This document shows, in pieces, positions 14,725 to 62,009 of a stretch of 64,000 nt of DNA. Source of the stretch: Melioribacteraceae bacterium. Lineage in GTDB: Bacteria; Bacteroidota; Ignavibacteria; Ignavibacteriales; Melioribacteraceae. The stretch covers positions 62,001-126,000 of the forward strand of contig BQMY01000074.1 in assembly GCA_022181065.1 (NCBI GenBank), in the 5' to 3' direction. The translations under genes were made by a program, and so were the position numbers. The first letter of the stretch is position 1, and each line of letters opens with the position of its first letter. The notes under the pieces were generated by a model, which saw nothing but the letters and a program-made list of their open reading frames with translations, searched no databases and was not told the origin of the DNA.

Positions 14725-17700
14725 ATGCTCAGAAAAGTTACAATTCCAATTATCATCGCACTTTTTTTCAGCGTGGGATTTTTTATTACTGAAAGACAAT
14801 CTGATAACAACGAATTATCAAGACATGAACAAAAATTACTCGCCGAAAAAGTGAAATATGAAAAATTCCGCAAACACTTTTCACAAAGTTCACCGGAACA
14901 TCTCAGATATAGCGAAAAAATAGAGAAAATTGAACGAAGATTGGAAGGTTACGCAAAATCGGATAAACCGGAAGAATTCGCGCGCATTTTGGCTGAAATG
15001 AAAACCAAACCGGGTGAAAACTCCCCTTCGTATCCGGCCAATTACAGGGTAAAAGAATTTAATAAATCGAGAGCTGCAATAAACAAACGAACATCCGGCG
15101 ATCCACTTCCCTGGGTATCACGCGGTCCCGGGAATGTGAGTGGACGTGTTAGAGGAATTGTGATTGACCCTGCTGACACAACAAATAACACGTGGTTCGT
15201 AGGCTCGGTTGGTGGTGGAATCTGGAAAACTACCGATGCTGGTTCAACATGGCAGGAACTTGCGACCAATCTTCCGGTATTTTCAACTTCTGCAATTGTG
15301 ATGGCTCCTTCCAATACTGATGTTTTGTATGTCGGCACAGGAGAAAGTTTCTTCAATGTTGATGTAATTAATGGTAATGGAATTCTTAAATCGACCGATA
15401 GAGGTAATACCTGGTTCCAGCTGCAATCTACAGCTGAAAATCCTCAGTTTAACAATATTTCAAGGCTTCTGGTTGATCCGAATGACGAAAATATAATTCT
15501 CGCTTCTACCACAACAGGAAGATATAAACTGAATCAAAGCAATTTTTCCGGTATTTTCAAGTCAACCGATGGCGGCGATACATGGACTAATGTTTACACT
15601 GAAACAGAAACTGTAAACGCACGAGTTAAAAAAGTTCTTCATATTATAGCTGATCCAAACGATTTTAACATAATGTACGCAGGTATTGAAGATAAAGGTA
15701 TTTACAAATCAACCGATGCCGGTGATACCTGGTTCAATTCCTCTACCGGAATGAATGATAGAGTTGGAAGATTTGAACTGGCAATATTTCCCGCGAATAC
15801 TTCCAGAATTTACGCGGCCTCTGAGGGCTCTTCCTTTAGCAACTTGTATGTCTCTACAGATGCCGGCGCAACATGGAACCAGACAACCGAGAATGGATCA
15901 GAACCAAACTGGCTCGGTTCTCAAGGCTGGTATGACAATACGATTGTCGCGCATCCTACAAATGAAAATATCGTTTATGTGGGTGGAGTTTATCTTTTCA
16001 AAATAACATTGCTCGCGAATAATAAACGTAATACAACAGAAATGAATACCGGTCCGGTACATGTTGATCACCATAATCTCGTAATTCTTAATGAAACTGA
16101 TGGCGGGTTCAGAATATTAAACGCAAATGATGGTGGATTGGGTCTTTCAGGAAATGGAGATGTTAACTGGACTAAACCAACAGACGGACTTGTAACAACA
16201 CAATTCTACGGTGTTGATAAAAAGCCGGGCGCAAGCGCTTATGTTGGAGGTATGCAGGATAACGGAACATGGCGTTCACCGGAAAATAGTGACACTAATT
16301 CAGACTGGTTCTATCAAATTGGTGGTGATGGCTATGAAACATCGTGGCACTTTGACGATCCCCTAAAAATAATTGGTGGTTATCAGTTTAACGGTTTAAT
16401 GCGCTCAACAGATGGCGGTAATAACTGGCAATCGGCAACTTCCGGTTTATCGGATGAAGGGAGCGGCTCCGCTCCATTTATTACCAAAATTGCCAAATCC
16501 AACCTTGAACCTGACTTGCTGTTTGCCGTTGGGAGCCAGGGTGTGTGGAAATCAACAAACTTCGGTGCGTCATGGATGTCGAGACCAATAACATCAAACT
16601 GGATGGGAAGTTCCTCATTTACTGATGTGAAAATATCGAGAGCTGATCCTGATATTGTCTGGGCAGGATCGAGAATGGACAGTTTCGCCAAGATTTTCGT
16701 TTCAACAGACAGAGGAGAAACTTTCACTCCTTCAACAGTTTATTCTGATGTTCAAATGGGAGGAATATCAGGTATATCCACACATCCGCATGATGCCGAG
16801 ACCGCTTATGTACTTTTCTCATACGCACAAAGTCCTAAGATATTAAAAACAACAGACCTTGGACAAAGTTGGACAGATATTTCCGGTTTTGGTACAAACA
16901 GCGTCAGCTCAAACGGATTCCCGGATGTTGCGGTTTATGACCTTCTTGTTATGCCTCACACACCCGATACCATTTGGGCAGCAACTGAAATTGGTCTTTA
17001 TGAATCAACAGATGACGGCGCTACATGGGCATACGCCGACAACGGTTTGCCTGCTTACCCGATCTGGATGATGACACATGTAGAGGAAGAAGTTGTACTA
17101 GCGACACATGGGCGCGGTGTTTGGTCGGTAAATATTCCGGGGTTAAGTTCAGGTGTAACATACAAACCACTTATAAAATCATTGACTCAAAACCTTGACG
17201 GTTTACTGGAAATAAATGTAGCGTTGAGATCATTATACGATTCCTCACACGTAGTGATAAATGATGAGATGTATGAGTCGGTTCTCGCGAATCTTTCCCC
17301 GGTCGATACTATCTTTTCTGTACCAGTTACGGAGGAAGGCGAAATTACTGCCTATGTTGTCGCTTATAAGGACGGAAATGCTTATCAATCTGTTATCCAG
17401 TCTGTTGATGTAATCCCATTGTTGGAAGCAAGTGAAACCTATACCTCAAACCTTGATGATGCTGCCGATGAATTTATTTCTTCCGGTATTACCGTAAAAA
17501 GTCAGAATGGTTTTGAAGGTATGGCGTTACATTCCCCCCATGATTATGGTAACAACAACAATTACACCGCAATGCTGCGAGTACCGATTATAGTCAAGGC
17601 AACAGATGCTTATCTTAAGTATGAGGATATCGCCATTATTGAACCGGGAGATCCCGGTACTGTTTTCGGAGACCAGTCGTTTTGGGATTACGTTGTCGTT

Positions 17701-18249
17701 GAGGGGACAAAAGATGGTATGAACTGGGTTCCGTTGGAAGATGGATATGATTGCAGATACAATTCTACATGGTCTTCAGCATATAGTGGCGGACAGAACG
17801 GCGCACCTTCAATGTATGTCTCACATGAAATAAATCTGCTCGATACATTTGAGGCAGGAGATAAAATACTTATCCGATTCAGACTATTTGCCGACGCTTT
17901 TGTAACAGGATGGGGATGGGCAATCGATAACATTCAGATACAAGGTGTTTTGAGTGATGTTGATAATATTGACTCTGAACTACCGACAGATTATTCCTTG
18001 TCACAAAATTATCCCAATCCGTTTAATCCGGCAACCACTATCAATTTCGGGTTACCGTCAGATAGCAGAGTCTCACTGAAAGTCTATGATACTATCGGTC
18101 AAGAAGTAGCGACTATCGTTAACAGTAGCCTTAAAGCAGGTTATCATACATACAATTGGGACGCGTCCAGACTTTCGAGCGGTGTTTATATATATCGCAT
18201 TGAAGCTGAAAATTTTGTTCAATCACGCAAAATGATATTGATTAAATAG
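14725..18249 (+). CDS. T9SS-secreted BNR-repeat (VPS10/sortilin-like propeller) protein
   Basis: The 1,174-residue product has an N-terminal membrane segment (residues 4-21) and a charged coiled stretch (28-90). A large beta-propeller region (about 125-810) follows, with many Asp-box/BNR motifs of the form S-T-D-x-G-x-T-W (K-T-T-D-A-G-S-T-W, K-S-T-D-G-G-D-T-W). Next comes a jelly-roll-like region (about 890-1080) and a type A T9SS sorting domain: N-Y-P-N-P-F-N-P-A-T-T-I-N-F at about 1092, G-V-Y-I-Y-R and a K-M-I-L-I-K end. It is exported by Sec, then the T9SS to the surface or medium. Sialidase-like catalytic residues are not evident; BNR propellers bind or cleave glycans or proteins. A relative without sorting domain lies at 50055. 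Confidence 0.88.
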   Translation: MLRKVTIPIIIALFFSVGFFITERQSDNNELSRHEQKLLAEKVKYEKFRKHFSQSSPEHLRYSEKIEKIERRLEGYAKSDKPEEFARILAEMKTKPGENSPSYPANYRVKEFNKSRAAINKRTSGDPLPWVSRGPGNVSGRVRGIVIDPADTTNNTWFVGSVGGGIWKTTDAGSTWQELATNLPVFSTSAIVMAPSNTDVLYVGTGESFFNVDVINGNGILKSTDRGNTWFQLQSTAENPQFNNISRLLVDPNDENIILASTTTGRYKLNQSNFSGIFKSTDGGDTWTNVYTETETVNARVKKVLHIIADPNDFNIMYAGIEDKGIYKSTDAGDTWFNSSTGMNDRVGRFELAIFPANTSRIYAASEGSSFSNLYVSTDAGATWNQTTENGSEPNWLGSQGWYDNTIVAHPTNENIVYVGGVYLFKITLLANNKRNTTEMNTGPVHVDHHNLVILNETDGGFRILNANDGGLGLSGNGDVNWTKPTDGLVTTQFYGVDKKPGASAYVGGMQDNGTWRSPENSDTNSDWFYQIGGDGYETSWHFDDPLKIIGGYQFNGLMRSTDGGNNWQSATSGLSDEGSGSAPFITKIAKSNLEPDLLFAVGSQGVWKSTNFGASWMSRPITSNWMGSSSFTDVKISRADPDIVWAGSRMDSFAKIFVSTDRGETFTPSTVYSDVQMGGISGISTHPHDAETAYVLFSYAQSPKILKTTDLGQSWTDISGFGTNSVSSNGFPDVAVYDLLVMPHTPDTIWAATEIGLYESTDDGATWAYADNGLPAYPIWMMTHVEEEVVLATHGRGVWSVNIPGLSSGVTYKPLIKSLTQNLDGLLEINVALRSLYDSSHVVINDEMYESVLANLSPVDTIFSVPVTEEGEITAYVVAYKDGNAYQSVIQSVDVIPLLEASETYTSNLDDAADEFISSGITVKSQNGFEGMALHSPHDYGNNNNYTAMLRVPIIVKATDAYLKYEDIAIIEPGDPGTVFGDQSFWDYVVVEGTKDGMNWVPLEDGYDCRYNSTWSSAYSGGQNGAPSMYVSHEINLLDTFEAGDKILIRFRLFADAFVTGWGWAIDNIQIQGVLSDVDNIDSELPTDYSLSQNYPNPFNPATTINFGLPSDSRVSLKVYDTIGQEVATIVNSSLKAGYHTYNWDASRLSSGVYIYRIEAENFVQSRKMILIK

Positions 18250-18360: not shown

Positions 18361-18390
18361 AAGGGCGGGTCTTTGACCTGCCCTTCTTTT
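18361..18390 (+). terminator. Rho-independent terminator
   Basis: AAGGGCGGGT pairs with ACCTGCCCTT (10 bp, one G-U) around loop CTTTG and is followed by CTTTTT. It lies 111 bases after the BNR gene. Confidence 0.85.
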
Positions 18391-18762: not shown

Positions 18763-20142
18763 ATGGTTAAATTAATACTAAAAATCGTGCTACTTTTTTG
18801 TTTAGCCGGCAGCACTTTGTCTGCGCAAAAATTTGTAGAGCTTTACAAGGATTTTATTGATCCGGGAGTTATCTCTACCACACAGGAAGCTGTGTATGTA
18901 AATGAAAAAATTGAAAAATTGGGTAAAATCAGTCCAACTCTTATCTATTATTATTTACTGAAGATTAATAATAATAGTAGAGAGACAGATGAGCTGAAAA
19001 AAATCAGATTTTATTATATCAGGCTTTTCAGGGCGTGGGAAGGAATCTTTACTCAGGGTTTATCAAAATGGGTGGAATATGAGTCCGGAAAGGCAGATGA
19101 AAATTACTCCGCGCTGATAGCATCAGAGATAACGGGCTATTTGTCAGATTACGAAGAATATGATGACTTTTACTACATCCCACCCGATACATTACATCCC
19201 AATGATACAACCCATTTTTTCACTTATTTATACAGAAGCGGGGAAAGAGAAGAGTTTTCACCGGGAAAAGATTATAAGTCTCTGGTTGGTAAAATCAGAG
19301 AGGAAAAAGTTGCACAGCTTAAAAAGTACTACGCTGATGATAACCCTGTAAGACGGGAAGAAGAGGCGATAAATTTTGCAGTTGCCAACAGATATCTGTT
19401 TCATGACCGGGCCTCCGGCTTACCTTATATGGTAGTTCCATTTCATGAGTTTACCCAAAAGTTTATCGAACATAAATTCAGGGAGAACAGCGCTATTTTA
19501 GTTGGCGCTTCCGGATATGGAAATCCGTATATAGCAGGAGATGAATTTGCTTATAATTTTGTTGATTATCGCTTCCCTTACCTGAATACAAAAAACACAC
19601 TGAAACTCGAATATACCGCCCAGGCTTCGGTTACAGCCGGATACAAGCATAAACTTAAGAAATATAAAGCACCATTCTCTTATGTAAGCGGAATGGTTTC
19701 ATTTGTGATTTCACATTCAAAGAATTTTGATACAGAGTACCCTACAAATATATCGGTACTTTATAATGAATTTCCTACCCGAAGTTTTTACGGAAATTAT
19801 CTACTAACTATTGAGAATGATTCATATTTGGCTTTTGGTGCCGAAGTGGAAACTCCTCTTTTCTATTTTAATCGAAATTTGTTTATCACAGGGGGATTGG
19901 AAATAAACTACTATTCCATTGGATTTGAAGCAAACATGGAGAGATTTATTATAACTCTGAAAAGCGAAAATCCACTCGATCTCGAAGAGGGAAAACTGGA
20001 AACAAAATATGAGTATAGTAAGATGGAATTATTTCCTTTTATCAGTTTGAAGATTGATTTTTTCCAGCCAGTTTCTGTTTTGATAAGATCACATAATCTT
20101 TCATCTGTTATGTTGTCAGCAATATTTAACTGGGGGATCTGA
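18763..20142 (+). CDS. Putative outer-membrane barrel-like protein, cassette copy 1
   Basis: The 459-residue product has a signal peptide (L-A-G-S-T-L-S-A-Q cleavage). Its N-terminal half (about 25-230) is charged and helical. Its C-terminal half (about 235-459) is alternating aromatic/polar strands (Y-N-F-V-D-Y-R-F-P-Y, K-L-E-Y-T-A-Q-A-S-V-T-A-G-Y), as in outer-membrane beta-barrels, ending N-W-G-I. No family recognised. A gene of the same length and layout occurs at 21779, and each is directly followed by a propeller lipoprotein gene; the gap here is 2 bases. I infer a barrel partner for a surface or periplasmic lipoprotein. Confidence 0.65.
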   Translation: MVKLILKIVLLFCLAGSTLSAQKFVELYKDFIDPGVISTTQEAVYVNEKIEKLGKISPTLIYYYLLKINNNSRETDELKKIRFYYIRLFRAWEGIFTQGLSKWVEYESGKADENYSALIASEITGYLSDYEEYDDFYYIPPDTLHPNDTTHFFTYLYRSGEREEFSPGKDYKSLVGKIREEKVAQLKKYYADDNPVRREEEAINFAVANRYLFHDRASGLPYMVVPFHEFTQKFIEHKFRENSAILVGASGYGNPYIAGDEFAYNFVDYRFPYLNTKNTLKLEYTAQASVTAGYKHKLKKYKAPFSYVSGMVSFVISHSKNFDTEYPTNISVLYNEFPTRSFYGNYLLTIENDSYLAFGAEVETPLFYFNRNLFITGGLEINYYSIGFEANMERFIITLKSENPLDLEEGKLETKYEYSKMELFPFISLKIDFFQPVSVLIRSHNLSSVMLSAIFNWGI

Positions 20143-20144
20143 AA

Positions 20145-21707
20145 ATGAAAGTTAAAAATATAAATATCATACTTCTGCTTGTTCTACTTCTAGTTTTCGG
20201 GTGCGAGAAAGTTGAGGTAACAGAGCCGGGCGAAACAACTCCCGGGCAACCCGTCAATGTTGAAATCACCTCTTACGATGACAAATACATTGTCGTAGAA
20301 TGGGAAAAACCTGAAAGTGGAGCGGAGTATTATGAAATATACTCTAACCTTTACGATAATGGGGAGCTCAATTTTGTTGCACTCGTTGACGGCAATGTTA
20401 CTTCCTACGAGTATCGGATTGGAATCGGGCAAACCGAGTTTGTTGAGATTTACATCAGGTCATACTCCAATAAAAAATTCTCTGAATTTAGTAAAACGCT
20501 TAAAGTATTATTCAACGGTGGAGTAACCTACCGGCTTGACGAAATGGCTGCTGAACCTCAACCGACAATCCTTTGGGATTATAACTTGCCAATATTGGGT
20601 TTCAGGGTCTATGAATTTCAAGCCGATGGAAGCAAAACCCTCAAAGCCGAACTCCCTGAAGATGCTTCCGTTTATTACATCGAAAATCCTGGTGCAAAAA
20701 TTCACCATAGATATTCAGTAGTCCCCTTCGACGGTGTCTCCGAGGGCGATGTAAAAAAATATGTTGACTATAATTACAAATTTATATCAGTTAAACTTAT
20801 TTTCGAGGAGCAGTTATCAGCTCAAAACAAGATGTACGATTGCCGGTTTTTGGATAATGATAATTACCTCGTTGCCGCAGATGATAAGGTGTTTTCATTT
20901 AACAGGAATGACGGTAGCAGAATAACCTACAACACCAGTTCAAATAGTTTTACTACAGTAAATACAATTGATGTAAGTGAGAATAAATCGAGATTTGTTA
21001 TTAGCAACCGCGCCGATAATAAAATCGGGGTGTACACAATTGGTAAACTCGCGCCTGATTTTACTTTCTCAAAACATTCGGCAAATATCACAGGTTTACA
21101 AATTAGTAGCGATGGCACTAAAGTTTACTCTGCAGATACAAATGGTGCTTACATTTGCTGGAGTGTGTTAGATGGTCATGAATATTTTTCTGGAGATATG
21201 GGTAAACCTATTGCTGATTTGCACCTGTCGGAAATTAACAACAAACTAGCATACGCTTTTGCGGATGGTTCATATAAAATCCTTGATGCCGATGCCGGAA
21301 CGATTATAGCGTCAAATACCACAGATGTATTGAATATCATTGATGTTGAACTTGCTGATGAGAAAGATATTATCGCTGTTAAAGGTATAAATAAAACTGC
21401 CATTTATAATTACTCTACCAAAACAGCATTAATTGAAGATGAAGTCGCAGGAAAACCATATCGGATGGGATTCAACGGAAAGGACTTGTTTTTCAATAAT
21501 ATCAACGCGGATAGTTCAAAAATCTATAATCACCAATGGAGTACAATAGTTACTACCACAGGCTATTTCCATGATATACAGGGGATAGAAATTGACAAGG
21601 AAAACGACAGAGTACTTACTTGTGATAGTGAAGGATATATTAACCTCAATTTCTTCGACAATAAGTGGGTGGTGTCTGTTTCGTCCGAAAACAATACTCA
21701 AAAATAG
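20145..21707 (+). CDS. Lipoprotein with Fn3-like and beta-propeller domains, cassette copy 1
   Basis: The 520-residue product has a lipoprotein signal ending L-L-L-V-F-G-C (Cys20). Residues about 35-120 look like a fibronectin-III domain (V-N-V-E-I-T-S-Y-D-D-K-Y-I-V-V-E-W-E, Y-Y-E-I-Y), possibly followed by a second beta-sandwich. From about 225 onward, WD40/YVTN-like blades repeat (K-I-G-V-Y-T-I-G, L-Q-I-S-S-D-G-T-K-V-Y-S-A-D). A propeller on a lipid anchor suggests a scaffolding or binding role. The start lies two bases after the barrel gene stop, indicating translational coupling. Function unknown. Confidence 0.7.
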   Translation: MKVKNINIILLLVLLLVFGCEKVEVTEPGETTPGQPVNVEITSYDDKYIVVEWEKPESGAEYYEIYSNLYDNGELNFVALVDGNVTSYEYRIGIGQTEFVEIYIRSYSNKKFSEFSKTLKVLFNGGVTYRLDEMAAEPQPTILWDYNLPILGFRVYEFQADGSKTLKAELPEDASVYYIENPGAKIHHRYSVVPFDGVSEGDVKKYVDYNYKFISVKLIFEEQLSAQNKMYDCRFLDNDNYLVAADDKVFSFNRNDGSRITYNTSSNSFTTVNTIDVSENKSRFVISNRADNKIGVYTIGKLAPDFTFSKHSANITGLQISSDGTKVYSADTNGAYICWSVLDGHEYFSGDMGKPIADLHLSEINNKLAYAFADGSYKILDADAGTIIASNTTDVLNIIDVELADEKDIIAVKGINKTAIYNYSTKTALIEDEVAGKPYRMGFNGKDLFFNNINADSSKIYNHQWSTIVTTTGYFHDIQGIEIDKENDRVLTCDSEGYINLNFFDNKWVVSVSSENNTQK

Positions 21708-21778
21708 ACGTATTGAGTTAACGGACTAATGCAGAAAATAATTTGTAGAAAAGGAAAACCGTATAAAATGGGGTGAAA

Positions 21779-23152
21779 ATGTTCACAAGACTTTCAACAT
21801 CTCTCTTTTTACTGCTTGTGATAACAATAACAACAGCTGGGCAAAATAATGAGTTACCATTCGTTTCGCTTCTTGGTAACGGATTTAATCAGAAAGTTAT
21901 CAGTAATAGCGAGTATAAAAGCACTTACGAAAATAGTGCGGAAATCAATCCTGCGATAGTTTATCACATGATTAATTTTTATAAAACTACTTCCTCCTAT
22001 GATAATTCCATGAAGGTGATTTATAAAAATATCTTTAATGATTTCACACAATATTTTTTACATTATAATTATGTTACCTTAAGGGACTTTAACAAGTATG
22101 TTGCCGAAAGTCCGTTATCGGTGAGAGAGAGATCAAGAATTAGTTCAATGTTACCCGAGTTAAAGACCGACAGCACTCCTCCGACCAGAAGCATGAATAT
22201 TGAAGTTACAGATACTCTTTGCTTTATTCTTGTCAGCCATTATAAAGACGAATTGTACGGTGGTTACGATAACTCGGCAAATTATGTTCAGGAATATAAA
22301 GAGCTTCTTAAAGGTAAAATTAAATCGGTAAATGATCTGGTTGCCAACAAAAGTGAAAATGATGTGTTGTTTAGCAAAACGTTCATCCGTGGTGTTATTG
22401 AATCTTACACGATGGCTGCAAGTATTGGTGAAACGCCTGATTTTGATTTTTCGATTGAGGAGTTCTGGAAGTATCTTGACAATCAGGAAATGAGCAGGTT
22501 TTCTGTTTTCGCAGGGGTGGAATATGCTCCTCTCGCTGTAAAACAGGAATTCCGCGAAGATTATATACTTACCGATTACAGGGCAGAAGAACTCGCAGTT
22601 CCGAATACATCAATTGTAAATACAGAGTATAATCTGTCGTTTAATGTTGGATTACGTTATAAATTTTCCAACACCAAAGATTATTTCCCATACCTCGATG
22701 CAATGTTTTATTACACTTTAGGTCATACTCAGGATGCGAAAGTAAAATACGATTTCTATACATTTTCAACACCACGATATGAGCTTGATGAAACAACTAC
22801 CGTCTATTATAAAGGGGGAGCAGCAACGGGGAATTCTTCTGAATTTGGTTTCCGACTCCTGACACCTGTTGTTTTTCTCTATAAAGATATATCTGTTATC
22901 GCCGGTGTTGACTTAATTTATAATAAACACGATTATGTAGTTGGTCTGAAGAGGGGTGATGTCACCTTGTCTTATGCTTCCGGTATTGAATCGTTTGAAG
23001 ATGATGATCCGCGCACGATTTTTACACATGAAAAGTTTGCGGTTTCTCCGGTACTCGGTCTCAATTATTCTTTATATGGAATTGAATTATATACTTTTTA
23101 TTCTCTTGAAAATAACATCATTGTCGGTTCAAGATACGGGGTGGAATTATGA
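21779..23152 (+). CDS. Putative outer-membrane barrel-like protein, cassette copy 2
   Basis: The product has 457 residues from ATG 21779 (459 from the GTG two codons earlier). A signal peptide (S-L-F-L-L-L-V-I-T-I-T-T-A-G-Q) precedes a helical N-terminal half containing I-N-P-A-I-V-Y-H-M-I-N-F-Y, comparable to I-S-P-T-L-I-Y-Y-Y-L-L-K-I in copy 1. A strand-rich C-terminal half (about 245-457) alternates aromatic and polar residues and ends R-Y-G-V-E-L. Sequence identity to copy 1 is low but length and layout agree, so the pair are probably old paralogues. It overlaps the next gene by 4 bases (ATGA). Confidence 0.65.
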   Translation: MFTRLSTSLFLLLVITITTAGQNNELPFVSLLGNGFNQKVISNSEYKSTYENSAEINPAIVYHMINFYKTTSSYDNSMKVIYKNIFNDFTQYFLHYNYVTLRDFNKYVAESPLSVRERSRISSMLPELKTDSTPPTRSMNIEVTDTLCFILVSHYKDELYGGYDNSANYVQEYKELLKGKIKSVNDLVANKSENDVLFSKTFIRGVIESYTMAASIGETPDFDFSIEEFWKYLDNQEMSRFSVFAGVEYAPLAVKQEFREDYILTDYRAEELAVPNTSIVNTEYNLSFNVGLRYKFSNTKDYFPYLDAMFYYTLGHTQDAKVKYDFYTFSTPRYELDETTTVYYKGGAATGNSSEFGFRLLTPVVFLYKDISVIAGVDLIYNKHDYVVGLKRGDVTLSYASGIESFEDDDPRTIFTHEKFAVSPVLGLNYSLYGIELYTFYSLENNIIVGSRYGVEL

Positions 23153-24690
23153 AAAAGTTGATTGTTCTATTGTTATTATACTTTTTCGTAGCAGGCTGTG
23201 AAGAAAAAAGCACAGAACCGATCCTTACAAATAAAACCCTCGAAACTGCAATATCCCCGTTAGTATGTTCCTTTACAAAAGAGAATGAAATGAATTTATG
23301 GTGGGAAGATAATTACGATAACGAAACCGGGTACGTAATAAGGCTGGTTTTCGAAAACGGTTCATCTGAAACAATTACAATAAATTCCCCGAATATTACC
23401 CACCAAAAGATTAATCTCGAAAATGTTACGCAACCAATAAGGGAAATACTTGTTAGCGCAATATTCCCGGATAATTTGTCAGTCAGGACTGTGCTTGCAC
23501 TTCCGGAACCGGGTTCTAACTTCTTTCTGACAGAAACAACAGACAACGGTTGTGAATTAAACTGGAATATAGGTGTTGGGCAATTTGATTATGTTTTAAG
23601 TGTGTTTCAAACTGACGGATCACTCTTTCAATCACAGAATTTCAATTCCGGCTCGGGTAAGTTTGGTATTGTACATGACCCGACAAGAAATCTGACTTAT
23701 TCTTTACATGGTACACTTGGAGATTATAATTTCTCATCTGAAGAAATCAATGTAGAACGACATAAGATTAGCGGTAATGGACTTTATGAGAATTTCACAG
23801 GTTTTTCTTATGTGGATGAAATACTGCCACTCTCGGGCAACAGAGCAATAATTAAATCGCCGGACAATTTACAAGTGAATCATATTGAAAGAAAAAGAAT
23901 TGAAGTTCTTGATAGCCTCGTTGATCTTGCAATTCCTCATCAACTAAGAAAAAACATGAGTTTGGCTAGAGGTGAAAATGATATATTTGCTGTATATAAA
24001 GTAGGGTATCGTGAATTATCAATTATTGATGGAAGTGATTTTTCAAAAATAAAGGATGTATATTTTGATAAAAATATTGAGTTTGTAAAAATTCTGGATG
24101 ACATGGTTTACATTGTCAATTCTGATAATAATATTTTTAAAAGTAGCATCCGGAATGGTGTATTATCTCAGGCAGGTTCTTTAACTAACAGCGATAATCT
24201 GTTCAGTGGAAGGGCTGATAATCGATTTTATTATACGTCTAACGGGGGTTGGATAAATCAAACAGACCTTGCGGGTAATGAGTTAAACAAACTAAATACC
24301 GGAGACCCGGCTATAAGTATTCTCGCAATTTCGCCCGATGATAATACCATCGCTGCCGTGAGTTCAACAACAATTCGGTCGATTGATTGCAGTGATATGT
24401 CTGTTATACATGAATTGCCACTTGCAGAAAATGTATATCGATTGAAATTTCTGACAAATGATATTTGTGTTTTACAATCTCCCGATTTGAGTTTTCGTTT
24501 TTATAACACAAAATTAAATTCTTTCAGCATGGTTTATTCCAATTATTCAGGTTCCACTCCTGTTATGGGGAATGATTTTAGCTGGTTTTATGATTCCGAA
24601 GCAAATGAATTCTACACTCATACAAGAGAAAACAAAGTTGTAAAAGGTGAGTTGGCGAATGACTGGTTAGTTATGTATGCAGGCGATTAA
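23149..24690 (+). CDS. Lipoprotein with beta-sandwich and propeller domains, cassette copy 2
   Basis: The 513-residue product has the lipobox Y-F-F-V-A-G-C (Cys17). An N-terminal beta-sandwich resembles Fn3 (L-W-W-E-D-N-Y-D-N-E-T-G-Y-V-I-R-L), and a second covers about 125-195. The rest is propeller-like (L-P-L-S-G-N-R-A-I-I-K, I-L-A-I-S-P-D-D-N-T-I-A-A-V-S-S). Order, size and position mirror the lipoprotein at 20145. Start and upstream stop overlap as ATGA, so translation is coupled to the barrel protein. Its stop codon overlaps that of the convergent methyltransferase gene. Confidence 0.7.
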   Translation: MKKLIVLLLLYFFVAGCEEKSTEPILTNKTLETAISPLVCSFTKENEMNLWWEDNYDNETGYVIRLVFENGSSETITINSPNITHQKINLENVTQPIREILVSAIFPDNLSVRTVLALPEPGSNFFLTETTDNGCELNWNIGVGQFDYVLSVFQTDGSLFQSQNFNSGSGKFGIVHDPTRNLTYSLHGTLGDYNFSSEEINVERHKISGNGLYENFTGFSYVDEILPLSGNRAIIKSPDNLQVNHIERKRIEVLDSLVDLAIPHQLRKNMSLARGENDIFAVYKVGYRELSIIDGSDFSKIKDVYFDKNIEFVKILDDMVYIVNSDNNIFKSSIRNGVLSQAGSLTNSDNLFSGRADNRFYYTSNGGWINQTDLAGNELNKLNTGDPAISILAISPDDNTIAAVSSTTIRSIDCSDMSVIHELPLAENVYRLKFLTNDICVLQSPDLSFRFYNTKLNSFSMVYSNYSGSTPVMGNDFSWFYDSEANEFYTHTRENKVVKGELANDWLVMYAGD

Positions 24691-41046: not shown

Positions 41047-42243
41047 TCAGATACCTCTTGGAAATCCGTTAGTAGTAGGAGTAAGTAAACTTCCCCAACC
41101 TATTTGAAGTGTGAACCTTAATGTTCCTGATAGCGGATGATTTTCACCACCATCAAATACATCTGTTATAAGGTATGAAAAATCAAATCCGTAAATGTCG
41201 TATCTCAGACCCGCACCAAGTGTGATGAATTTTCTGTTACCATAAGATGGATCTTCATAGAAATAACCACCACGAAGAGCAAACATAAAGTCTTCCGGAA
41301 CACCATACCAGTATTCAAGACCCATAGAAGTAACAATATCTCTCAACTCTTCGCTGAAAGGTTCGTCACCCCATGCGGTGAAAACGCTTTCATAAAATTC
41401 AGCTCTTTCTTCTGTTGACTGGGTATCATCATCTGTATCACCACGGAAAGCTTCCCCCTTGTCAACCAATAGTTTTGAGAAATCGAGGGTGTAGGTGAGT
41501 GAATTATACTCATCTTCGAAAATTCTTGTAGCAAACGCGAGGCGGAATTGAGTAGGTATCGGGTCAGCCTGTGCCTGATCAATATAATAGATTTTCGGAC
41601 CAAGATTACTCAAGTTGAAACCGGCTGAAAACTTATTACCTATATCACCAATGAAAGGTATTTCGAACGCAGAAGGTCTCCACATCATACCGAGGTCGAA
41701 TGATACTGAAGTAGCGACACCTTCGCCCTGTTCCTGCGCGGTAGGCTGATCAGCAAGACGTGAGTGGATCAATCTGAAGTTCAATCCCAATCCCCAGTCA
41801 GCGTGAATTTTAGTTGCGTAACCACCGGTAACAGCCACGTCATAAGAACGGAAAGTTCCGATTGGTTCAGGAGAGTTTTCATCAGTTCTTACAAACTCGC
41901 CATAGTTCATATATGTGATACTTGCAGTAACACTACCGCCGAGATCCTCAAGATAGTGTCTGAAAGTTAAATAGTCGTAGAAAAGGTCAAGATTAAACTG
42001 AGGGAGCCAGTTTGAGTGAGTAATACTCGCTTCTGTACCGGAAAGGAAAGCAATACCGGCAGGGTTCCAGAAAATAGCCGAGGAATTGTCAGCGAGAGCA
42101 CCTCCGGATTCACCCATACCACCCGCACGTGAGTCGGGAGACAGCAGCAAAAACGGTACTGCGGCTTCACCCTGGGCAGAAACCTTGTCAGTTAATCCAA
42201 CAAGTGATACGCATATCAAAATCATAAAAACAAAACGCTTCAT
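41047..42243 (-). CDS. porV: T9SS outer-membrane protein PorV
   Basis: The 398-residue product is a PorV/PorQ family (FadL-like) barrel. After the signal peptide come F-L-L-L-S-P-D-S-R-A-G-G-M-G-E and A-D-N-S-S-A-I-F-W-N-P-A-G-I-A, the family hallmark. Strands follow throughout, with L-D-F-S-K-L-L-V and L-R-Y-D-I-Y-G-F-D-F-S-Y near the end. PorV takes T9SS cargo from the SprA translocon and delivers it to PorU at the outer membrane. It lies 47 bases behind porU, the usual order in this phylum. Confidence 0.93.
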   Translation of the reverse strand: MKRFVFMILICVSLVGLTDKVSAQGEAAVPFLLLSPDSRAGGMGESGGALADNSSAIFWNPAGIAFLSGTEASITHSNWLPQFNLDLFYDYLTFRHYLEDLGGSVTASITYMNYGEFVRTDENSPEPIGTFRSYDVAVTGGYATKIHADWGLGLNFRLIHSRLADQPTAQEQGEGVATSVSFDLGMMWRPSAFEIPFIGDIGNKFSAGFNLSNLGPKIYYIDQAQADPIPTQFRLAFATRIFEDEYNSLTYTLDFSKLLVDKGEAFRGDTDDDTQSTEERAEFYESVFTAWGDEPFSEELRDIVTSMGLEYWYGVPEDFMFALRGGYFYEDPSYGNRKFITLGAGLRYDIYGFDFSYLITDVFDGGENHPLSGTLRFTLQIGWGSLLTPTTNGFPRGI

Positions 42244-42290
42244 TTATGTACTCCTCCAAGTAAAAATAAATTGAAAAACAAATTTTTATT

Positions 42291-45200
42291 TTAGCGAATT
42301 ACGGACATTTTTCCAAGGAAATTCTCAGTAACCTGTCCGTCAGTAGTTTCGACAATTAATTTATAAAGATAAGTTCCATTGGCTATCAGGTCGCCATCGG
42401 CATCCCTGCCATCCCAGAATACTCTTACGAACTTATCGGGAATTGCATATTTTTCTATTTCTTTAATTAGTCTTCCGGCAATTGTGTAAACCTTCACTTT
42501 TACATCCACAGCTGAAGAATAATTATGCTGGAATGTAAAGTGTGTCTGTGCCGAAAACGGATTAGGGTAGTTAACTACATCACGGAGAACAAGTCCCCCG
42601 CTGCTGACAACAGTGAAATAAGATTCGTCCGAATTGAAATTGTTGAATACGTCCCATGCATTGACCGTAATAGAATGATCACCCGCGTCCATAGAGCTGA
42701 TATTGTACTCAATGACACCCGATTTACCACTAGCATCGAGATCACCAATGAAGTAGTTGGTTAAATCAAATGAGTTTTCGGCATTCCCGTCAATCACACC
42801 TTCAAGCTTATGCCCGACACCGGTTCCGGTGGTATTCAGACCTGTTTCATCTTCAAGTCTGACAAGCAGTGTAAAATCTTCATTCACGAGGTAAGCGCCT
42901 GATTGATCAAGCTCATCGAAGTAAATCTCAATCTCGGGACCCTTGCCATCATTTGTAACGGTTGTATCAGTACCACCTATGATAATTTTATCGGTGTAGC
43001 CAATACCATCAACCTCGTCATTAAAGAAGTAAACAACTACTTTACCTTGTTTATTCTCGTAAGTAATATCCTTCGGAACAGTAAAGGAGGCATTAAACAA
43101 ACCGTTATTTACTGAAACACGTCCTCTGAATATAACACCGCCCGGTAATTCCATTGACTGAAAATTCAATTCTTTCAGCTCAATTTCCTTGTCTGAATCG
43201 AAGACCGTAATGATTGCTTCACCATTAAAACCGGAGTTAAGAACGGTTGAGTTTTCAGTAAAAACATTTCCCTTGATAGTAGCGGATTGTAGTGCCTTCA
43301 ACTGAACATTTGATGTAAGCGGCTGATTATTGATCTCGGAAATATTTCCTGGTAGTTTTGGCTCATTCAATATTAATGCGGGATCGGTGAAAATGTGGAA
43401 TTTCTCACTGTTTTCATCCACCCCGATAGAACCGGCATTTTTAGCTTTCCAGTAAGCATATCCAACTCTGCGGGGATATTCATCGATATCTTCGCTGAGA
43501 AGATAATTATAAAATTCTTTATTCAGTTGTGAGTTCTGGCTCGCGAATACTGCGCGTGTAGCTGAAAACGCGCCTATCATACCTTTATCACGCATAAAGA
43601 GCATTTCCTCGCTGGCGCTGGTTTTTGCAGGATCATCATAACGTCCGAAGTCACAGGTCGCCGCGGTCAGGAAGAAATATTTGTTGTTGTTCAGCAACGG
43701 CAAGGTAGTAGCTCTTTCGAAAACATATTCGTGAGTCCATGTATCGGGATTACCATGCCCGATAAAGTTGAGCAGCAAAGTTCCATTATTCACAGCATCG
43801 ATAATAGCCTGATTCACAGAGGGTTTCCTTCTGCCTGAACCTGTATTGACAGTAGGGTAAGCCGCTAGATAAATTTTCTGCAGATCGTAATAACTTGGTA
43901 TCCTTGTGTCAGCCAGCTCTTCCGATTGCGATGTATGGAAATACTCTGTAGAACTATCGGACGTTAACTGGTCGTCGGCGATCATTGTGATTTTTGTGCG
44001 CCAGATACCTTTATCGAGACCGGTTTCGTAATTGATGATTTTATCGACAAATATTTCAGCATCTTCGGCGCTGTTTACCGGTATTCTACCGTGAGCAATA
44101 TCGATGTAAAGGTCGTTTCCATTTACGCGAACGTAATAATCATCAGTAGGATAGGCATAAACTTCATTCATTGACTGTTCTGTATGCATTGAAGGAACAA
44201 AATTACTTCCGTAACCTTCGGTATCAAAGAAATCGTAACTGGCATCACCAAAAAGCAAGATATAATCGGGCGACACATTTCTGTAAATATATGCTTCGTA
44301 GATAAAATTCCTTAATGCGGTAGGATCAACCACCCCGAAGTTGTAAAGGTTGAATATATCCTCAATCAGCACCACTTCGGAAGAGATAGGATAAGGGGAA
44401 ATATTTTCACGAAAATCCGCTAATCTTAAAGCCTGATCTTCAAACTCTCCGGATGTTACGATAATATATCGTGAGTCTCCCGTCCTTCCGGTAATAGAAT
44501 TGTTATTTACCGCAACCGGATTAACAATACTTTTGAACTTTTCCGCGCAGGCAGCAATATATTTATTTCGTGTTTCCGCTGATTCACTTCTTATAAATCT
44601 TGCCTGACCACCGCTAAGGGAGGCACCGGTAATTTTCTTCACACTTCTGTAATCTGTAACTTCAAAAATGTGGATATCGGTGTTTGTGAATCCGCTTAGA
44701 GTGTATCGAATGTCCCCGGCAGATGGATCACTGTAAAAAATAAGTTCGTCTTCTACTGAACTGAGCGAGGCACGGTAACCAATTTCAAAGTAGTCAAGAT
44801 AGCCGTTTATGCTCGCGCTGTTGGTGTTGAAGGTAAATTTGAGTACCGAACGATCATCGGGATAACTGGCATTTACCGAAAATGACCCGCTGTTAACCCT
44901 ACCATAATCGAAGGTGGAATATTTACCTATCATGTTTCTGGAAAGAACACGCTCCCCATTTTCATCGATGTATAACAAGCGCGAGTATATAGAGTTGTTA
45001 GCGAAACTGTAATTGTACTTTACCGGTTCATTTTCAATAATGTTCGGCAACGACGTTACGTATGTATGTGATTGAGTTATCGTTGAAAATTCATCACCAA
45101 CAAATAGTCTTCCTGTTTTATACAGATTCCTGCTATTCTCTTCGAAAAAGGCAAAAGCATCGGTTTGGGTTTGTTCAACAGGGTTATTCACGTTTATTGA

Positions 45201-46205
45201 TGATGCCATTTCCATTCTCTCACCCGCTGAATTACCAACAGTTATAAAGTGATAATTTTTATTAGTGAATGGGTGCCGATTCCTGACAATATCTTCAGAG
45301 TCTTTATCAACGCTCCAGAAGTCAACATTCCTGCCGTAAAAGAGGATATAATCTCCGGAGTCGAATGAGCCATCTTCCTCTCCCTGAATCATAATTGGTA
45401 TCTCTTTTTCATCGAAAGAGAGAAAGTCACCAGGGGTTTCGGAGAGCTTCAACCCGCCTGATGAGTAAATTTTAATGTTTCTCGGATCTACATTATCCGC
45501 ATCAATTCCTATAGATGAAAGTTCATCCCTGTTGATTCTGTATATTCCTTCATCGGGTGTTTCAAATTTGTACCAGGTGCCGGAGGCAAGATCATTCTGC
45601 GTGTTGGTCTTGAAGATTTTCTGATGGGGCACACCCCATTTTACCGCGTTTTTCTCATTAACCAGAAGTCCGGAATACCAGCTGCTATTTTCAACTTTTT
45701 CATAACTCCCGGAACTGTTTGGCAGATTTATTCTGAAAACAATTCTTGTATATAATGTAATTTTTTGATTTTCCTGATCATACTTTATCGGGAACACCCT
45801 TGCGGCGGCTACGTTAATATCTTTCATTTTGCCGGAATTGCCGAGTAACAGAATTTCAGGATTGGAGTATTCTTCAATTTCATCGTAGGATGGAGATTTC
45901 AATTCACCATCGAGTTCTTTCTTTTCAGAAATAAGAAGAGTAAAAGTGTTGTTTTCCAGGGATGGAGTACCAAACTGGAAAATTCTGAACTGAGAGGTCG
46001 GATTGGTATTGTAACTGAATCCGTTTTTGAGAATAATATTTTTTACGCCTGCTGCCGAATTATCTACATCATATATATCGAACTGCGGAGAATACTCTAC
46101 CACAACGTGCGAATCGTCTGAGGACAATATCCTGAAATCATTTGATGCGGATAAAAATGAATGTAGTAATACTACTAACAGACATATAAAGAATTTGCTT
46201 TTCAC
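42291..46205 (-). CDS. porU: T9SS sortase PorU (gingipain-like peptidase C25)
   Basis: The 1,304-residue product has a signal peptide and a beta-rich N-terminal half (about 25-560). A gingipain-type caspase-fold domain (about 570-950) carries the catalytic His in F-I-G-H-G-N (His817) and Cys in T-A-A-T-C-D-F-G (Cys851), with D-Y-I-L-L-F-G-D-A upstream. The end is a FlgD-like/T9SS-type domain (N-Y-P-N-P-F-S, G-T-Y-L-Y-K-L). PorU removes the C-terminal sorting domain of T9SS cargo and attaches it to the anchor. The start is GTG, immediately before the signal peptide; first gene of the operon. Confidence 0.94.
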   Translation of the reverse strand: MKSKFFICLLVVLLHSFLSASNDFRILSSDDSHVVVEYSPQFDIYDVDNSAAGVKNIILKNGFSYNTNPTSQFRIFQFGTPSLENNTFTLLISEKKELDGELKSPSYDEIEEYSNPEILLLGNSGKMKDINVAAARVFPIKYDQENQKITLYTRIVFRINLPNSSGSYEKVENSSWYSGLLVNEKNAVKWGVPHQKIFKTNTQNDLASGTWYKFETPDEGIYRINRDELSSIGIDADNVDPRNIKIYSSGGLKLSETPGDFLSFDEKEIPIMIQGEEDGSFDSGDYILFYGRNVDFWSVDKDSEDIVRNRHPFTNKNYHFITVGNSAGERMEMASSINVNNPVEQTQTDAFAFFEENSRNLYKTGRLFVGDEFSTITQSHTYVTSLPNIIENEPVKYNYSFANNSIYSRLLYIDENGERVLSRNMIGKYSTFDYGRVNSGSFSVNASYPDDRSVLKFTFNTNSASINGYLDYFEIGYRASLSSVEDELIFYSDPSAGDIRYTLSGFTNTDIHIFEVTDYRSVKKITGASLSGGQARFIRSESAETRNKYIAACAEKFKSIVNPVAVNNNSITGRTGDSRYIIVTSGEFEDQALRLADFRENISPYPISSEVVLIEDIFNLYNFGVVDPTALRNFIYEAYIYRNVSPDYILLFGDASYDFFDTEGYGSNFVPSMHTEQSMNEVYAYPTDDYYVRVNGNDLYIDIAHGRIPVNSAEDAEIFVDKIINYETGLDKGIWRTKITMIADDQLTSDSSTEYFHTSQSEELADTRIPSYYDLQKIYLAAYPTVNTGSGRRKPSVNQAIIDAVNNGTLLLNFIGHGNPDTWTHEYVFERATTLPLLNNNKYFFLTAATCDFGRYDDPAKTSASEEMLFMRDKGMIGAFSATRAVFASQNSQLNKEFYNYLLSEDIDEYPRRVGYAYWKAKNAGSIGVDENSEKFHIFTDPALILNEPKLPGNISEINNQPLTSNVQLKALQSATIKGNVFTENSTVLNSGFNGEAIITVFDSDKEIELKELNFQSMELPGGVIFRGRVSVNNGLFNASFTVPKDITYENKQGKVVVYFFNDEVDGIGYTDKIIIGGTDTTVTNDGKGPEIEIYFDELDQSGAYLVNEDFTLLVRLEDETGLNTTGTGVGHKLEGVIDGNAENSFDLTNYFIGDLDASGKSGVIEYNISSMDAGDHSITVNAWDVFNNFNSDESYFTVVSSGGLVLRDVVNYPNPFSAQTHFTFQHNYSSAVDVKVKVYTIAGRLIKEIEKYAIPDKFVRVFWDGRDADGDLIANGTYLYKLIVETTDGQVTENFLGKMSVIR

Positions 46206-59480: not shown

Positions 59481-62009
59481 ATGAAATTTAATTTTAGAGC
59501 CTTACTAATATTTATTACAATTTTTACATCATATTCAGATGCTTCAAATTATCCGCATAACCTGATATACATTCATCCAAAACCGGGTGCAAATGATATT
59601 AGTACCCAATCGCATTTATTATTCAAAGTTGATGAAAACAAATATCAGGAATTCCCCGCGATAGATTACGTCATTCATGTTGAAGGTTCCGAATCGGGTA
59701 AGCATCAAATAAACTATGTGGTATCTGATAACACACTTTCACTAAAAAGTGTGGAGAATTTCTTGCCCGGAGAAATTGTATCGGTGAAAATTGAGTATAA
59801 TAACACCACTTACAAATATAGTTTTACGGTTACCGAAATAAGGGAATACGACCCTGAAGTATTCAAAAAAAGAGATTGTGAGACTAATGATTCCCCATTG
59901 CAAAACACCCCAAATACTGCAGGAGTTGCAAGGGTAATCAATGGAGTCGCCATCCCATCCGATTTCCCTACTTTCAGCTACTCAATCTATGATGAGCAGA
60001 AAGTAGCACCGGGTAAAATATTCCTGAACAACTGGATGGGAAACCCTTACATCGCGATTCTCAATAATGACGGCTCACCTTATTTCTATCAAAAAGTAAA
60101 TGATCGTTCCCGCGATTTTAAAGTCCAGAAAAATGGTATGCTGACGAGAAGACTTCGGAACTCGGAATATGGATTTCTGGCAATGGATTCTTCATATAAT
60201 CGCATCGACTCATTCAAATGCGTAAACGGATATGAGGTTGATGAACACGAACTTTATATGACAGAAGACGGACACTACTTCATGATTGCGCTTGGGTATC
60301 GTACTGTTGATATGAGTCAGATTGTACCCGGAGGGAATTCGAATGCTACCGTTGTTGATAATCATATTCAGGAATTTGATGAAAATCATAATCTGGTGTT
60401 TGAATGGCTAAGTTTTGATCATTTTAATATCGCGGACGCTGTCCATGAAAATTTGCAGGCAAGTTTCATAGACTATGTTCACATGAACTCAATCGCGGTT
60501 GATTATGACGATAATATAATAATTTCAAGCCGCCATCTGGATGAAGTAACAAAAATCGACCGGCAAACCGGTGAGATAATCTGGAGAATGAGCGGTGAAA
60601 ATAATCAATTCCAGTTCATTAACGATAATGATATGCTCGGGTATCAACACTTCGCCCGACCTGTGGAGGGGTCCCCGGATAGTTATATAGTTTTCGACAA
60701 TGGTAATTACCGTCCCCAGCTATACACGAGAGCAGTCGAATTTAAAGTTGACACAACCAACATGACCATCGAGAAAGTGTGGGAATTCCGGCACGATCCC
60801 GAAATTTATACATGGTGGATGGGCAACGCGCAAAGGCTTCCAAACGGGAATACTTTTATTAACTATGCCAATGGCGGTATGCCCAAAGCTGTAGAAGTTA
60901 CTCCCGAGGGTGAAGTTGTTTATGAAGGTGATTTTGATGATTACTATCACTGCTACAGAGCTTTCCGATATGAGTGGGAAAGCGAAGATGATACACCTTA
61001 CCTTGTAGTGGAACCTTTACCGGCAAATGTGACATTAGTCTGCAATCATTTTGGCAAAGAGGATGTTCAGAAGTATATTATCTACCGTGGAACAAATCCG
61101 AATTATCTTTTCCCGATCGATACGGTTGAAACACAAATTGTCGCGCTCACCGAACTAATAAATCACGCAACGTATTATTTCGCGATAAGATCAGTGGATA
61201 ACTCCGGGATTGAAAGTGAAATGTCAAACATTGTATCGGCATATGTAAACATAATTCCGGCAGGTACAAACTATATCCAGAACTGGAATTTTTCCAATGG
61301 TCAGGCAAACTGGGGTTTCGAAACATACGGCTTCGCTCAGGCACAAGGTTTCGTAAATGGTGGAGAATATGTTTTTGATATATCCAATGGTGGAGAAGCC
61401 GCATGGAATATTCAGTTAACACAAGGGAATCTGCCTGTCATAAAGGGAAGAAAATATATACTCGAATTTGACGCGCGAGCTGCGCAGAACAGAACCATTG
61501 AAGTTAAAATCGAAAAAAATGGTGATCCGTGGACCAATTACTCAAAAACGAGCACGGTAATAATTAAACGTCAGATGGAACATCACACATTTGAATTTGA
61601 AATGACAGACGAGACCGATTACCAGGCAAGAATATCATTCAACTGCGGCGTTTACGATGACAATGTTTATATTGATAATATTAACTTTGCTGAAGTTCCT
61701 ACGACCGGAGTGGAAACCGAACCCACAGTCGTAGAGAGGTTTGAACTTCTCGGAAACTACCCGAACCCGTTTAACCCTTCAACGAAAATAAAATTCAGGA
61801 CTCCCGGAGCGGGATATGTTACCGTAAGAGTTTATAATCCGACAGGAGAAGAAGTCAAAGAATTGAACAAGGATGTTACCGGTCAGGGAATCCATGAAGT
61901 ATATTTCGCTACTTTTGAACTTGCCTCGGGTGTTTACATCTATACAGTAGATTTCAAAGGTGATAAGCTCAACCAACGAAGTTCAGGGAAAATGGTGCTG
62001 CTCAAATAG
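59481..62009 (+). CDS. Arylsulfotransferase-like propeller protein with CBM-like domain and T9SS signal
   Basis: The 842-residue product has a signal peptide and an N-terminal beta-sandwich (about 25-125). An ASST-type six-bladed propeller (about 145-505) has V-D-E-H-E-L-Y-M-T-E-D-G-H-Y, H-M-N-S-I-A-V-D-Y-D-D-N-I-I-I-S-S-R, I-D-R-Q-T-G-E-I-I-W-R-M-S-G and Q-H-F-A-R-P. An Fn3-like segment (about 510-590), a jelly-roll carbohydrate-binding-like module (about 595-735) and a T9SS sorting domain (G-N-Y-P-N-P-F-N-P-S-T-K-I-K-F, then G-V-Y-I-Y-T) follow. ASSTs move sulfate between aryl groups using a transient sulfohistidine. A surface-exposed enzyme acting on sulfated polymers is inferred. Confidence 0.87.
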   Translation: MKFNFRALLIFITIFTSYSDASNYPHNLIYIHPKPGANDISTQSHLLFKVDENKYQEFPAIDYVIHVEGSESGKHQINYVVSDNTLSLKSVENFLPGEIVSVKIEYNNTTYKYSFTVTEIREYDPEVFKKRDCETNDSPLQNTPNTAGVARVINGVAIPSDFPTFSYSIYDEQKVAPGKIFLNNWMGNPYIAILNNDGSPYFYQKVNDRSRDFKVQKNGMLTRRLRNSEYGFLAMDSSYNRIDSFKCVNGYEVDEHELYMTEDGHYFMIALGYRTVDMSQIVPGGNSNATVVDNHIQEFDENHNLVFEWLSFDHFNIADAVHENLQASFIDYVHMNSIAVDYDDNIIISSRHLDEVTKIDRQTGEIIWRMSGENNQFQFINDNDMLGYQHFARPVEGSPDSYIVFDNGNYRPQLYTRAVEFKVDTTNMTIEKVWEFRHDPEIYTWWMGNAQRLPNGNTFINYANGGMPKAVEVTPEGEVVYEGDFDDYYHCYRAFRYEWESEDDTPYLVVEPLPANVTLVCNHFGKEDVQKYIIYRGTNPNYLFPIDTVETQIVALTELINHATYYFAIRSVDNSGIESEMSNIVSAYVNIIPAGTNYIQNWNFSNGQANWGFETYGFAQAQGFVNGGEYVFDISNGGEAAWNIQLTQGNLPVIKGRKYILEFDARAAQNRTIEVKIEKNGDPWTNYSKTSTVIIKRQMEHHTFEFEMTDETDYQARISFNCGVYDDNVYIDNINFAEVPTTGVETEPTVVERFELLGNYPNPFNPSTKIKFRTPGAGYVTVRVYNPTGEEVKELNKDVTGQGIHEVYFATFELASGVYIYTVDFKGDKLNQRSSGKMVLLK

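Follow-up and report, generated by a model that had tools for sequence, protein, structure and literature searches.

Eight-stranded outer-membrane barrels normally lack a wide pore and are usually anchors rather than channels. Members of the OmpA family proper carry a peptidoglycan-binding domain at their C-terminus. The TonB-dependent transporters BtuB and SusC are 22-stranded barrels with a plug domain; their genes adjoin those of the lipid-anchored lipoproteins BtuG and SusD. BtuG, a surface lipoprotein folded as a β-propeller of seven blades, is attached to its barrel (PMC10404256). BamB is likewise a propeller lipoprotein.

A window of 64,000 nucleotides from a Melioribacteraceae bacterium (assembly GCA_022181065.1, contig BQMY01000074.1, positions 62,001 to 126,000 of the forward strand) was analyzed, for which an original prediction had described two consecutive gene pairs, each encoding a barrel-like protein and a propeller lipoprotein, as a duplicated cassette. 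With OmpA, OprF and NspA the first protein, barrel A, has in common the predicted fold of residues 241-459, in which the outer loops are long and the inner turns short, but sequence identity to these proteins is 6-10%. Furthermore, the OmpA family proper has its additional domain at the C-terminus, whereas here the barrel is C-terminal and preceded by a helical periplasmic domain; no OmpA-like peptidoglycan-binding domain was detected by Pfam in 15 members of the barrel family. The arrangement of a barrel gene adjoining the gene of a lipid-anchored lipoprotein is that of BtuB-BtuG and SusC-SusD. In contrast to these large plugged transporters, the barrel studied here is small (about eight strands predicted), neither a plug nor a receptor domain was found by Pfam, and the lipoprotein partner is missing in relatives. 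Lipoprotein A matches Pfam models and PDB chains of WD40-type propeller proteins with residues 235-412, but remains below the Pfam curated cut-offs, is lipid-anchored and has a weak Fn3-like region in front of the propeller. Its weak match to BamB lies far under the cut-off, and it is not conserved even within the bacterial family.

Table 1. Features of the four-gene block and its upstream boundary (positions in the window)
Feature	Coordinates	Strand	Description
Intrinsic-terminator-like hairpin	18361..18385	+	11 pairs, 7 of them G-C, then CTTTTT
Barrel gene A	18763..20142	+	459 aa; signal peptide, helical domain 24-239, predicted OmpA-type 8-stranded barrel 241-459
Lipoprotein A	20145..21707	+	520 aa; lipobox VFGC, weak Fn3-like N-terminal part, probable WD40-like propeller
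Barrel gene B	21773..23152	+	459 aa from GTG; alternative ATG at 21779 gives 457 aa; diverged paralogue of barrel A
Lipoprotein B	23149..24690	+	513 aa; lipobox VAGC, predicted mostly beta; possible Fn3 and propeller

Gene order, coordinates and sizes (459/520 and 459/513 residues) were found as predicted (Table 1). So was the tight spacing within both pairs, a 2-base gap in pair A (20142 to 20145) and an ATGA overlap in pair B (23149-23152); 65 bases lie between the pairs. The hairpin at 18361-18385 is located between the block and the gene of a type IX-sorted protein (14725-18249). Terminator-like sites occurred overall at about the frequency expected by chance (4 versus 3.5 expected); this hairpin has the longest and most G+C-rich stem among them and is the sole one on the + strand. 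With its T run it probably ends the transcript of the preceding gene. The next gene 3' of the block starts at 24687 on the opposite strand. Because a terminator-like hairpin lies upstream and the following gene is on the other strand, the block 18763-24690 probably forms one transcription unit.

The gene at 14725-18249, directly upstream of the block, encodes a repeat protein of 1174 aa with a type IX sorting tail, which matches a glycosylhydrolase model with a score under the model's cut-off. At 41047-46205, a PorV-type protein adjoins a C25 (gingipain-type) peptidase, probably a type IX secretion sortase pair. Positions 59481-62009 encode an arylsulfotransferase-type protein that also contains a carbohydrate-binding module and ends in a type IX sorting tail.

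Barrels A and B were aligned by pairwise BLASTP over the C-terminal half with E 7e-6, and a shuffle test gave a z of about 10. A family profile built without proteins of this genome matched barrel A at 4e-49 and barrel B at 4e-21; it also matched a third copy on the same contig (3e-28), about 80 kb downstream and outside the window (G000:C74:164389-165738; L047:9386-10738). The N- and C-terminal halves of both barrels match the family separately, those of barrel B at 3e-5 and 1e-12, respectively. The claimed kinship of the two first genes is borne out by these comparisons, which identify barrels A and B as true paralogues. In the tree, with long branches and a support of 66/75 at this point, the values are too low to speak for or against a lineage-specific A/B duplication.

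Relatives of barrel A occur in two others among 79 genomes of the same bacterial family, and profile searches raised the number of genomes with the barrel family to 11-12 among the 164 from the order. Further members were found once in the class (G175) and in four genomes elsewhere in the phylum; a match in G275 was rejected as false, as it overlaps a reverse-transcriptase gene. By these searches the family is sparse in the order and has distant relatives in the phylum. Significant sequence matches in Pfam, NCBIfam or the PDB were not obtained, so that the family appears undescribed in the libraries searched, in line with the claim that it is unrecognised. In those parts of the literature on outer-membrane lipoproteins and tandem outer-membrane proteins of Melioribacteraceae and Ignavibacteria that were accessible, nothing apparently bears on this barrel family.

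An AlphaFold2 model of barrel A was built with nine family members as alignment. It reached a mean pLDDT of 64.7 and a pTM of 0.41, with mostly 70-87 in the strand blocks, and is helical over residues 24-239, followed by eight main strands within residues 244-458. Comparison of the C-terminal part by VIA-align yielded Z 14.7 for OprF (4rlc; 2.1 Å over 121 residues), Z 14.5 for OmpA (1qjp; 2.3 Å over 133 residues) and Z 14.5 for NspA (1p4t), well above the values of 7-8 that VIA-align rates as common. Strands 1 and 3 are each followed by a long loop (28-32 residues), strands 2, 4 and 6 by short turns (3-9 residues). Conservation is lower in loops 1-3 (11-13% identity) than in strands 2-5 together with turn 1 (22-31%), and these loops also vary more in length than the central strands. 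The C-terminal half of the first proteins is therefore predicted to be an OmpA-type 8-stranded outer-membrane barrel, for barrel A by the model and for barrel B by profile membership. This prediction agrees with the proposed helical N-terminal and strand-rich C-terminal halves, as far as the first gene is concerned, and supports the reading as an outer-membrane barrel.

Since an even-stranded barrel keeps both ends in the periplasm, the N-terminal helical domain of about 215 residues would be periplasmic. It shows 18.8% identity; no fold match was obtained for it in a whole-model structure search, which was filled by barrel matches. A barrel of eight strands normally offers no wide pore, and hence a transport role of these proteins is unlikely according to the model.

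The barrel genes form arrays in other genomes as well. G046 has a row of three plus a fourth copy elsewhere, and G037 likewise has three consecutive copies. A distant relative, G468, contains a trio (L101:6060-9806) whose first member consists of the helical domain only, without a barrel. Copies 1 and 3 of G046 and the three copies of G037 cluster by genome in the tree with full support, indicating that arrays grew more than once. Two adjacent G037 copies (L007:7982-10945, G037:C714) are identical over stretches of 262 and 83 bp close to the 5' ends of the genes; this near-identical tract comprises about 345 bases, and the rest of both genes is roughly 40-65% identical. It looks like a recent gene conversion within the array or, less probably, an assembly error. 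The window copies show about 15-20% identity to relatives. A copy in G103 (L045:2791-4179) is interrupted by three in-frame stops and is probably a pseudogene. Taken from these alignments and the tree, the barrel family duplicates in tandem repeatedly and diverges fast.

Pairing with a propeller lipoprotein was not observed at any other family locus read. Solo barrels were found in G085, G162, G048, G140, G175, G464 and G476 and as the third copy of the window's own genome, and two separated copies each in G143 and G472. Neighbours scanned with Pfam encoded enzymes, transporters, a PorV-like protein or DUF3857/transglutaminase lipoproteins, or gave no match; in the four phylum-level genomes, neighbours were assessed from ORF lists only. 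A gene for a lipoprotein of about 500 residues directly downstream of the barrel was likewise absent from the loci read, and therefore the missing pairing is independent of lipoprotein similarity. In this sample, in which several contigs are short and the window's genus is represented by one genome, the arrangement of barrel and lipoprotein is confined to the genome studied here. Occurrence of the pairing in relatives had been named beforehand as one of the tests of the original prediction, and a conserved two-part complex is unsupported, as the barrel occurs in relatives by itself or in arrays made up of barrels only. Lipoproteins of another kind were seen near two barrels: a DUF3857/transglutaminase lipoprotein is encoded two genes upstream of the third barrel copy, and two paralogous ones adjoin the G143 barrel (L042).

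Lipoprotein A matched WD40-type Pfam models at 1e-10 (residues 235-412, all under curated cut-offs) and WD40 chains of the PDB at 2e-9; its Fn3 match in Pfam was weak (E 0.075). For lipoprotein B, the best indications were a COPA/B propeller model (E 0.007) and the Fn3-like Tencon (E 0.13), and its structure model was mostly beta with a pLDDT of 38.5 and otherwise unusable. Hence, of the proposed features of the second members, the lipobox was found in both and a WD40-like propeller is probable from the profile matches of A, while propeller and Fn3 domains in B are just suggested. Between the two lipoproteins, BLASTP gave E 0.005 and a global shuffle test a z of 2.4-3.1, as compared to 1.2 and -1.2 for unrelated control pairs. 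Their alignment is co-linear from end to end and includes a TEP motif after the lipobox and a tryptophan near the C-terminus. Judged from these values, a common origin of lipoproteins A and B is marginal; of the proposed cassette, duplication is thus established for the barrel gene and just possible for the lipoproteins.

Full-length relatives of lipoprotein A or B were found neither in 79 genomes of the bacterial family nor in 164 of the order, and a pattern search of genome contigs yielded no relatives of lipoprotein A; weak matches in 22 other genomes span short Fn3-like or WD40-like stretches only. For surface lipoproteins of Bacteroidota a lipoprotein export signal (LES) is described, C-X-K-(D/E)2 or a similar acidic sequence after the lipid cysteine, with an optimum defined for Capnocytophaga canimorsus (PMC5080379). 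Lipoprotein A has CEKVEV at this place and lipoprotein B has CEEKSTE; both are acidic and somewhat similar to the signal but depart from its optimum.

Our preferred explanation, which we hold at about even confidence, is that the barrel serves as an anchor or platform and not as a channel, that each of the two window barrels binds its own co-translated lipoprotein, and that the barrel gene alone is the basic unit. The barrel would hold the helical domain beneath the membrane in the periplasm and display variable loops outside the cell; in this genome, each barrel would bind its lipid-anchored Fn3/propeller protein, as the gene coupling suggests. The family's lone barrel gene would be prone to tandem duplication and quick divergence, and the lipoprotein partner would be a local addition. 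It is also possible, if somewhat doubtful, that the barrels act alone and the lipoproteins are operon neighbours without contact, similar in layout because both are composed of common Fn3 and propeller blocks and not because a cassette was duplicated. All other loci read are solo or barrel-only arrays, the third barrel of this genome is without a propeller neighbour, full-length lipoprotein relatives are missing from the 164 genomes, and the similarity of the two lipoproteins is as low as z 2.4-3.1. However, it is unlikely to be coincidence that each of two barrels has a lipoprotein gene within two bases behind it and that both lipoproteins are almost the same length, and the co-linear alignment with its common TEP motif and tryptophan also argues for more than shared building blocks. 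Anchoring of a co-translated lipoprotein, as preferred here, extends to a further claim that we regard as rather unlikely: a new two-part outer-membrane device in which a helical-domain OmpA-type anchor docks its own Fn3/propeller lipoprotein in two diverged variants, the lipoprotein having been added in this lineage to a barrel family that elsewhere occurs alone or in tandem.

Fast divergence, variable loops, recurrent arrays, the conversion-like tract in G037 and the G103 copy with its in-frame stops would fit a surface-diversity locus, in which phages, predators or attachment partners exert selection on exposed tandem barrels, whose copies provide variation instead of separate functions. 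We consider this improbable; the periplasmic helical domain has diverged like much of the barrel, and selection on loops alone falls short of explaining it. Nutrient uptake in the manner of BtuB/BtuG or SusC/SusD, with the propeller lipoprotein capturing a ligand that the barrel imports, has a precedent in BtuG, but is very improbable for a barrel of about eight strands without plug, whose matches are OmpA-type barrels and in which Pfam found no TonB-dependent receptor domain. The least credible possibility is an assembly accessory of the BamB type that aids barrel insertion: lipoprotein A matches the BamB model weakly (E 0.015), yet it scores 14 bits where the curated cut-off (TIGR03300) is 285, and lipoprotein B does not match. 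Moreover, conservation would be expected of a housekeeping factor, but a full-length relative is missing even in the same bacterial family.

The finding is real but modest: a family of OmpA-type proteins that appears undescribed and is prone to tandem duplication, and no new kind of system. Should the pairs form complexes, they would illustrate the acquisition of a lipoprotein partner by a small anchor barrel. Recurrent tandem amplification together with fast divergence suggests that, in Melioribacteraceae and their relatives, this barrel family is exposed to the cell's surroundings.
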